This document shows positions 7,299 to 23,157 of a stretch of DNA of 64,000 nucleotides, piece after piece. The stretch covers positions 124,001 to 188,000 of the IMG/VR virus record IMGVR_UViG_3300050343_000199, one strand, 5' to 3'. A program made the translations under genes and the position numbers. Source of the DNA: a virus. Within the stretch, counting starts at the first letter, position 1; each line of letters starts with the position of its first letter. The notes below the pieces were generated by a model. It ran no database searches. It worked only from the letters and a program-made list of their open reading frames with translations, and had not been told where the DNA came from.

Positions 7299-7335
7299 GA
7301 ATATTATTGCCTACTAGTTTATACTCATAAAAAAA

Positions 7336-7354
7336 GAGAGGGGTTAACCCTCTC
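7336..7354 (-). terminator. Terminator after the DUF4278-like gene
   Basis: Stem GAGAGGG with CCCTCTC, 5-nt loop, then seven T residues on the minus strand. Confidence 0.85.
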
Positions 7355-7369: not shown

Positions 7370-7537
7370 TCACTTGGTGTAAAGTTTACCACGATAACAG
7401 AATGTACCATGGGTCTCTTTGGATTCTACACAACGTGTATTATACTCAACACCACGATATGAGGTGTGAGTAATTTGTGCGTCGTGAAGTGCAGATGCTT
7501 TGTTGATCTGCTTACGAATCAGATTAAGTGTGTTCAT
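7370..7537 (-). CDS. DUF4278-like microprotein
   Basis: 55 residues with two YRG motifs (SYRGVEYN and CYRGKLY) separated by about 20 residues, the pattern of the small DUF4278 family common in cyanobacteria. An AGGAGT site lies 7 nt before the ATG. It shares the transcript with the upstream 54-residue peptide gene, so it is probably under the same glutamine-type riboswitch, and ends just before a terminator. Function of the family is unknown. Confidence 0.75.
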   Translation of the reverse strand: MNTLNLIRKQINKASALHDAQITHTSYRGVEYNTRCVESKETHGTFCYRGKLYTK

Positions 7538-7577
7538 TGTAGTTACTCCTAAAGTAGTTGGAATTTAATCCGTTCCT

Positions 7578-7742
7578 TTAGTCGTTTGCGTCCCATGGAT
7601 AGCAATCGGGGGTTGATTCCTTCATAACTTCAATCAATTCCACCTTCATTTCAGGAGGAATATTCTCATTTGTTTTCATCCGAAACATAATTGAATCGGC
7701 TTGAGCACATGAGAGTGTTGTATAGAATAATAATTCTAGCAT
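7578..7742 (-). CDS. Riboswitch-controlled 54-residue peptide
   Basis: The ATG follows the last base of a 60-nt structured leader with no spacer. The peptide has a hydrophobic N-terminus (LELLFYTTLSC) and an acidic C-terminal half ending in PWDAND. It is not basic like the glutamine-synthetase inactivating factors IF7/IF17, so the same mode of action should not be assumed. The published downstream-peptide RNA class is defined by short genes in just this position. The gene has no ordinary Shine-Dalgarno sequence; the leader ends in CATCCC. Confidence 0.8.
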   Translation of the reverse strand: MLELLFYTTLSCAQADSIMFRMKTNENIPPEMKVELIEVMKESTPDCYPWDAND

Positions 7743-7802
7743 GGGATGAACGGCTCCGTTCCGCGACTTACTTGCGTCCCACCCAAGAGTGGGATGAACG
7801 AT
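7743..7802 (-). ncRNA. Downstream-peptide / glutamine riboswitch
   Basis: On the minus strand the leader begins CGTTCATCCC, forms a hairpin (TCCCAC with GTGGGA), continues GACGCAAGTAAG, then GGAACGG, and ends with a second exact copy of CGTTCATCCC touching the start codon. These blocks match the downstream-peptide RNA, a relative of the glnA RNA; both bind L-glutamine and are known from marine Synechococcus, Prochlorococcus and phage. Pairing of the 5' CGTTC with GAACG closes the aptamer; the 3' copy can compete for the same GAACGG. Family identity comes from remembered consensus, not a covariance-model search. Confidence 0.82.
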
Positions 7803-7808
7803 GGTATT

Positions 7809-7837
7809 AGTATACCATACTATGTATATGATGTCAA
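7809..7837 (-). promoter_or_regulatory. Near-consensus promoter of the riboswitch unit
   Basis: Minus strand TTGACA (7837-7832), 17 nt, TATACT (7814-7809). The predicted first base (about 7802) coincides with the 5' end of the riboswitch. Confidence 0.9.
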
Positions 7838-12026: not shown

Positions 12027-12076
12027 TGTTTTGAAAAAAGTAAGATCATCAGGGAGATGATGGTTTTACTATTCCT

Positions 12077-12097
12077 CTGCGCCCTAGGCAGAGGTAT
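12077..12097 (-). other. Hairpin in the psbA leader
   Basis: A 7-bp stem (CCTCTGC with GCAGAGG) around a 7-nt loop in the untranslated leader, about 50 nt before the psbA ATG. It has no U run after it, so it is an RNA-stability or translation element rather than a terminator. Confidence 0.55.
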
Positions 12098-12190
12098 GAA
12101 AGACGTGTTTATACACCCTATAGGTCTTGGTTTGAGGAGTGTTACGAACCGTTAAGAAATATGTTGATTCCTTAACTAACCGATGTATTT

Positions 12191-22955: not shown

Positions 22956-23157
22956 ACTAGACTCATGCACGCCACTTGTTTTATTATTTCAGATGCTAAA
23001 CAAGAAAACAACCACACGGAAGGGGATTTACCACCAATATATTTTTACTGGAACATATAAACCAGGCGGCAAAATCTTCACCCGCACCAGGGCAAGTTTA
23101 GAGTCCATCCGAGACTGGACCAGAAGACGAATCTACCCAGCTCCACCAGGGCGAGTT

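Follow-up and report, generated by a model that had tools for sequence, protein, structure and literature searches.

The locus analysed here raises the question of what a cyanophage does with a leader RNA that resembles a glutamine riboswitch and carries a repeated segment directly at the start codon of a small gene. The window, that is the whole stretch of 64,000 nucleotides that was analysed, belongs to a virus record of 192,818 bp representing a T4-like marine cyanophage genome, with psbA, psbD, PhotoRC-II and tRNAs near the element. A PhotoRC-II RNA is found upstream of a psbA-like gene (12061-12154, minus strand, 71 bits), and a wcaG RNA scores just above threshold (23023-23118, minus strand, 44.7 bits). 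The element is encoded on the minus strand, a point on which an earlier note on this DNA was silent. All the parts named in that note, i.e., promoter, repeats, hairpin and GGAACGG, are found in the sequence: the first CGTTCATCCC at 7800-7791, TCCCAC/GTGGGA at 7794-7789 and 7782-7777, GACGCAAGTAAG from 7778, GGAACGG at 7762-7756, and the second CGTTCATCCC at 7752-7743, directly against the ATG (7742-7740). The near-consensus promoter consists of TTGACA (7837-7832), a 17-nt spacer and TATACT (7814-7809), and because of this placement the RNA is predicted to start 1-2 nt ahead of the CGTTC motif, at the leader as had been claimed. In relatives the -10 box is surrounded by an inverted repeat with arms of 5-7 bp (at least 78 arm sequences), mostly 0-4 nt 5′ of the aptamer, and in 106 elements TTGACT[AT][AT]ATA is found upstream, a sigma-70 -35 box overlapping a T4-like late-promoter motif. 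With the promoter overlap and the inverted repeat there may be two sites of initiation, and late transcripts may carry a 5′ RNA hairpin.

Both copies of the exact 10-base duplicate are present as described, but their identity is partly accidental; family-wide the two copies share only CGTTCAT and a pyrimidine, and the later bases differ with each P2 stem. Leader and ORF were matched in 437 annotated cyanophage records (blastn). Among loci fetched by the ORF protein and not by the RNA pattern, the 5′ half is present in all 77 with enough upstream sequence. The sequence at the end of the ORF, TATCCATGGGACGCAAACGACTAAAGGAACGG, together with the second CGTTCATCCCATG at the start codon makes up a second glutamine-aptamer-like unit, the former as its 3′ half and the latter as its 5′ half. 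This 3′ half, CATGGGACGCAAACGACTAAAGGAACGG, lies 150 nt 3′ of the second CGTTCATCCC, spans the stop codon of the ORF (7597-7570) and occurs in 80/80 protein-fetched loci. The breadth of these matches and the two complete sets of protein-fetched loci rule out chance similarity.

The pairing of these halves was analysed in 291 distinct related phage double elements parsed from all loci, where those found by pattern have fixed cores. Judged from covariation, the element is a nested double aptamer, in which the first CGTTC pairs with the GAACG 3′ of the ORF and the second CGTTC with the GAACG 5′ of the ORF (Table 1). In the predicted structure junction A is a glutamine-I-like three-way junction made up of P1a (CGTTC1:GAACG2), P2a and P3. 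The P3 of A runs into junction B (P1b, i.e., GAACG1:CGTTC2, and P2b), which is a circular permutation of A, and both junctions cap this one common P3 helix.

Table 1. Parts of the element and its transcription unit, listed in the direction of transcription.
Feature	Position	Strand	Basis or remark
Sigma-70-like promoter TTGACA-17-TATACT	7809..7837	-	Sequence; predicted start 1-2 nt ahead of aptamer
C1 (CGTTC), P1a 5′ strand, partner G2 7571-7575	7796..7800	-	Covariation of adjacent long-range pair
P2a hairpin TCCCAC/GTGGGA, junction A	7777..7794	-	Covariation, 0/2000 shuffles
Junction A core ACGCAAGTA, corresponding to glutamine-I AAGUA strand; C 7774 long-range with G 7570	7769..7777	-	Rfam and long-range pair analysis
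P3 5′ strand AGTCG, partner 7580-7584	7764..7768	-	0/5000 shuffles; AATCG/CGATT compensatory variant
G1 (GAACG and long-range G 7756), P1b 5′ strand, partner C2	7756..7761	-	Circularly permuted P1
GGAG, probable Shine-Dalgarno of nested ORF, P1b loop	7754..7757	-	Distribution among relatives
C2 (second CGTTC), P1b 3′ strand	7748..7752	-	RNAalifold, energy fold
P2b 5′ strand TCCCATG with start codon 7740-7742, partner 7591-7597	7740..7746	-	Covariation 0/2000, 0/1000; MFE fold
Nested 54-aa ORF	7578..7742	-	phrog_504; T4-GC_430 in S-BM3; Syn9 gp197
P2b 3′ strand CATGGGA, encodes part of PWD	7591..7597	-	Covariation, MFE fold
Junction B core ACGCAA; C 7588 long-range with G 7756	7586..7591	-	Covariation; protein-fetched loci
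P3 3′ strand CGACT, over last sense codon and first base of stop	7580..7584	-	Covariation
G2 (GAACG and long-range G 7570), P1a 3′ strand	7570..7575	-	Covariation, RNAalifold, Rfam alignment
CTTTAG, can pair with CTAAAG 7576-7581 without junction A; candidate expression platform	7549..7554	-	Fold, shuffles
Shine-Dalgarno AGGAG of downstream gene	7546..7550	-	Sequence
55-aa DUF4278-like (YRG...YRG) protein, phrog_545	7370..7537	-	Pfam DUF4278 21.1 bits, E 4e-4
Intrinsic terminator GAGAGGGTTAACCCCTCTC and T run	7329..7354	-	Sequence; ends ~480-nt transcription unit

The long-range pair of glutamine aptamers joins the base after GACG to the base after GAACG. Under the nested assignment this pair is Watson-Crick in 291/291 elements for junction A, where it occurs as two pair types, and in 287/291 for junction B. 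Side-by-side local pairing is contradicted in 67/291 elements, since G would face G at the long-range pair of A; in these, G is found in the first copy and directly 3′ of the proximal GAACG, and C comes after the distal GAACG. For 33 compact elements aligned independently (A1), agreement at this pair is 100% with the nested and 69.7% with the tandem assignment. P3 is formed by the first-half strand that follows AAGTA and the complementary second-half strand that precedes RAAGGAACG. Its duplex energy is -4.19 with the cognate partner and -2.73 (sd 0.24) after shuffling, and 0/5000 shuffles are as good, a count that, like the other shuffle counts given here, is not a probability because the compared sequences are related. 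P3 also displays compensatory variants among relatives (GGCTAACG/CGTTGAGCT; AATCG/CGATT). The change from AGTCG/CGACT to AATCG/CGATT is seen in nine loci fetched by protein, not RNA, and in the 8/8 of these that reach far enough upstream the closing pair of P2a has changed from T-A to C-G.

RNAalifold, run without a supplied structure, gives the nested pairings C1:G2 (P1a) and G1:C2 (P1b) together with P2a and P2b. The Rfam glutamine-I model aligned to the relative L120 from C1 to G2 scores 38.6 bits, above gathering, with the second unit as a 39-nt P3 insert. P1a and P1b are invariant, so the case for them is made only by the adjacent long-range pair and by energy folding. The closing positions of P2b are paired in 81.8% of the ORF-bearing set as against 68.3% after shuffling (0/2000), and the layout is otherwise the same in relatives without the ORF (L012, L019, L039, and L120), where the P2b loop is short and the next gene follows. 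Junction B keeps the cyclic strand order and the long-range pair in 287/291 elements, and since it is without the AAGUA and GAA E-loop strands, it may not bind glutamine. A covariance model of the double element (R1) matched the halves in the window separately, with 28.7 and 11.7 bits, and did not span the ORF.

Two simpler arrangements have to be weighed against these data. In one of them, two glutamine aptamers of the ordinary kind stand in tandem, each closing on its own halves, and the ORF interrupts the second. Tandem glnA RNAs have been published and also occur among the present loci (L018 and L028), and P2a and P2b fit equally well under either model. However, the first half is tied to the last by the long-range pair and P3, the local pairing is broken in the 67 elements mentioned above, and both RNAalifold and the Rfam alignment choose the nested form. 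Simple tandem aptamers are thus rejected by covariation, and we regard them as very improbable.

The other arrangement is that of the earlier note, where both CGTTC copies compete for a single GAACGG, the first by forming a local aptamer (CGTTC1:GAACG1), and so give an OFF/ON switch for the 54-aa peptide. There are, however, two GAACGG strands, and covariation assigns C1 to the distal and C2 to the proximal one. The local GAACG:CGTTC hairpin is strong and is present in the MFE fold, and because all five bases are identical in both CGTTC copies, both pairings are sterically possible; exchange between local and nested pairings may take place during folding or translation. Against competition stand the G-G apposition that it would give to the first copy's long-range pair in those 67/291 relatives, a local aptamer that is left without P3 and the partner strand of the E-loop and scores under the Rfam gathering threshold, and the 3′ half that is conserved across the stop codon, which such a model overlooks. 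Since covariation pairs the second CGTTC with the proximal GAACG, the proximal hairpin is a part of the architecture rather than a competitor, and the local single aptamer with a competing repeat, being rejected by covariation, is in our judgement highly unlikely.

When it comes to family membership, sequence comparison supports the proposal that a glutamine-riboswitch-type RNA is present in a cyanophage leader beside small-peptide genes. RNA of this type in cyanophages has already been mentioned in print. The window scores 29.1 bits with Rfam glutamine-I (RF01739; E 1.9e-4 in 351 nt, gathering 35) and 25.0 bits with glutamine-II (RF01704; gathering 33), in both cases below gathering. The earlier note had stated that the lack of a hit above threshold would speak against its reading, and taken literally this is the outcome for the window. 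The threshold is missed because the ORF splits the element, which leaves the RF01739 match local only by blocking a match over the whole element, and a compact relative does pass across the nested junction. Three relatives are over the RF01739 gathering threshold (L120 as given above, L042 with 37.7, and L001 with 36.7 bits), and scores with RF01704 are 24.5-32.8 bits among relatives, under its threshold.

The likeness of junction A to glutamine-I (glnA RNA, RF01739) comprises P1 (CGUUC/GAACG), AUC, the P2 hairpin, the GACG-AAGUA strand, P3 and the RAAGGAACG strand in a three-way junction, a covarying long-range pair, and a compact relative above gathering. AAGUA and (A/G)AAGG form the E-loop-like strands beside P3, the latter being AAAGG just 5′ of G2 in the window. 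The phage element differs from glutamine-I in that its P3 ends in a second, circularly permuted junction and not in a small loop, its P2 loops hold complete ORFs, and its long-range pair is C:G where G:C is usual. With glutamine-II (downstream-peptide RNA, RF01704) it shares the pocket identity, the C:G long-range pair and the small DUF4278 peptide genes downstream; glutamine-II has been shown by reporter work to be an ON switch (PMC6698751). The H-type pseudoknot of RF01704 with an outer P2 flanking GGAACGG was not found in the phage element, which aligns with a low score and partly mispaired, and the nested structure accounts for the strands that RF01704 would place in that pseudoknot. The putative pocket residues are all kept; these are the core G, the C-G and G-C of P1, and the long-range pair, which covaries between C:G and G:C. 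By its strand features the element would be a descendant of the glutamine-I riboswitch and probably similar to it in its working.

Tandem glycine aptamers and tandem glnA RNAs likewise have two homologous aptamers in one leader, but these are placed side by side, whereas the second phage aptamer lies circularly permuted within the P3 of the first. Glutamine riboswitches encoded by phages have been reported as plain Rfam hits for S-CREM1 (glnA, 99 nt) and the OM43 phage Melnitz. The length of the S-CREM1 hit is compatible with a compact double element, and no double architecture or nested ORF was found in the accessible parts of the two descriptions.

The pairing of TCCCATG at the start of the ORF with CATGGGA near its end places the ORF inside the P2 loop of the second unit. 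The start codon is then part of P2b, the C-terminus WDAND and the stop are encoded by the conserved GGGACGCAAACGACTAA, and the stop codon overlaps the end of P3. P2b loops of at least 100 nt (n=179) contain an ORF in 176 cases, starting 3-6 nt after CGTTCA, and in 171/176 the stop codon is found 14 or 17 nt beyond the loop, within the second half of the aptamer. GGAG is present in the P1b loop of 74/179 ORF-bearing elements versus 1/112 compact ones. Some relatives carry a second ORF in the P2a loop; 61 of the 68 long P2a loops have one, with the stop 10 nt beyond the loop in 34/61, typically as GRK followed by the stop, from GGACGCAAGTAA. Among cultured phages, Syn9 (gp196 and gp197), S-TIM5, and S-SCSM2R, for example, have an ORF in each loop, and a P2b ORF is found in S-P4, S-RIM2, and S-SSM6b.

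These ORFs are under purifying selection, with median dN/dS of 0.10-0.36 in the nine largest sets and 0.26 in the family of the window ORF, computed without the ORF ends encoded by the aptamer. Together with the conserved reading frame this rules out that the inserts are non-coding filler, and in hundreds of cultured cyanophages the only annotation of the nested ORF is that of a hypothetical protein. The peptides of the P2a and P2b loops have in common a hydrophobic N-terminus and two invariant cysteines, and an AlphaFold model of the nested peptide displays two helices (pLDDT 78.6). They appear to belong to a single superfamily of small proteins with two helices and two cysteines, and since some resemble signal peptides, they may be exported and form disulfide bonds. 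In group I and II introns ORFs are placed in peripheral loops, and the phage element is similar in having a protein gene within a loop of a folded RNA. It differs from them in resembling a metabolite sensor rather than a ribozyme, in the overlap of the ORF ends with the paired core, and in peptides that are not endonuclease-like in length or sequence.

The earlier note had the leader control a peptide downstream, and this has to be amended, since the aptamer encloses the 54-aa ORF, and what follows the whole element is a DUF4278-like gene. In the window this gene is followed by a terminator, so that a single short unit runs from the promoter through the element with its nested gene and the DUF4278-like gene to the terminator. 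A small ORF is located about 30-60 nt 3′ of the element in 275/291 cases, with YRG motifs in 267/275. Pfam DUF4278 (PF14105) is matched by 16/17 diverse relatives at E≤0.01 (best 6e-12), and the protein of the window stays under the Pfam cut-off (21.1 vs 25.3 bits). In the glutamine synthetase inactivating factor IF17, DUF4278 spans the N-terminal part, and cyanobacterial, including picocyanobacterial, DUF4278 genes are controlled by glutamine riboswitches (PMC6316151). A literature search returned no paper combining DUF4278 and phage. The cassette is found just before transaldolase (talC) in Syn9, S-P4, Syn30, S-RIM2, and S-SSM6b, and shortly after the ribonucleotide reductase gene nrdB in four of these five. 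Divergent YRG proteins (HAPAHP..., KIEPHVEIYRG...) occur on element-bearing viral contigs (L341, L383, L397, L363, and similar), and because of these and of a distinct G-type element group the family may extend beyond marine Synechococcus phages.

As to function, we consider it rather probable that the nested double glutamine-type element with its gene switches the DUF4278-like gene ON with glutamine and is antagonistic to translation of the nested ORF. Glutamine would close junction A, and perhaps also B. The closed junction A would draw CGACUAAAGGAACG into P3/P1a and off the CUUUAG just upstream of the Shine-Dalgarno sequence of the DUF4278-like gene, which would be translated at high host glutamine, like genes behind known glutamine riboswitches. 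In the predicted ligand-free fold, CUAAAG from the stop-codon region (7576-7581) indeed pairs with this CUUUAG, and the complementarity of the cognate strands is better than that of shuffled ones (0/1000 as good). When the aptamer is forced, at a predicted cost of 1-9 kcal/mol, the predicted accessibility rises from 0.01 to 0.76 for CUUUAG and from 0.22 to 0.94 for the DUF4278 AUG, and that of the Shine-Dalgarno AGGAG falls from 0.41 to 0.24. The CUUUAG partner is absent in some relatives. An ON switch for the DUF4278-like gene is therefore favoured from the predicted accessibility of the platform, in line with glutamine-II, and we propose it with moderate confidence.

The nested ORF would be antagonistic because its ribosome must open P2b, B, P3 and part of A, and such an antagonism between ribosome and folded element follows from the overlap of ORF and element. 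The closed element would bury the start codon of the nested ORF. In secondary-structure predictions this AUG is buried in both states, so control by a ligand would act through tertiary stability or folding rate.

The buried start codon would also suit a different role, in which the nested architecture is right, but is now mainly a structural or co-evolved cassette where glutamine is irrelevant and the loops are insertion-tolerant sites for ORFs. The RNA would then be a protein-binding, mRNA-stability or translation-coupling element. The reduced junction B, the diversity of the ORF families and the hairpin-like repeat 5′ of many elements are in keeping with such a cassette; on the other hand, every pocket residue is kept, and downstream there is still a DUF4278-type gene, the type governed by glutamine riboswitches in the hosts. 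We hold this role to be rather unlikely. The glutamine switch can be extended to the tentative proposal that the aptamer itself encodes protein, start, C-terminal and stop codons being made from nucleotides of the sensor. Folding and translation might then exclude each other, with the peptide made at low and the DUF4278-like protein at high glutamine, and two interlocked pockets might give a steep response; we see this as possible but somewhat doubtful.

Within the sample the nested double architecture looks phage-specific. A pattern search of 386 cyanobacterial genomes did not find the double pattern. RF01739 was found in 72 of them, 62 above the cut-off, as ordinary glutamine-I only, and the double-element model matched only single aptamers of 50-63 nt. 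Among 14 longer host aptamers inspected none had a second junction; these are single-junction forms, including ones with long P2 stems. In several cyanobacterial genomes (L642-L645, L648, L649, and L651-L653) single glutamine-I aptamers precede small ORFs (ARLLM...KQNRQASML), which presumably resemble the glutamine synthetase inactivating factor IF7. A contig scan with the loose pattern GGAACGG-N-CGTTCATYC showed no double element among the matches listed, and a literature search with narrow terms gave no report of an ORF within an aptamer or of a double architecture.

Riboswitches are usually treated as untranslated leader elements. Here complete genes under selection lie within aptamer loops, and coding nucleotides overlap those of the paired core. 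The element shows why covariance scans miss riboswitch-like RNAs that are split by an ORF, and it is a test case for ribosome versus ligand on the same RNA. If glutamine controls it, these viruses would read the nitrogen status of the host by means of an architecture not found in the sampled hosts, and this reading would be linked to proteins with DUF4278, the domain in IF17. The element bears on the question of whether the timing of infection by lytic phages depends on nitrogen supply.
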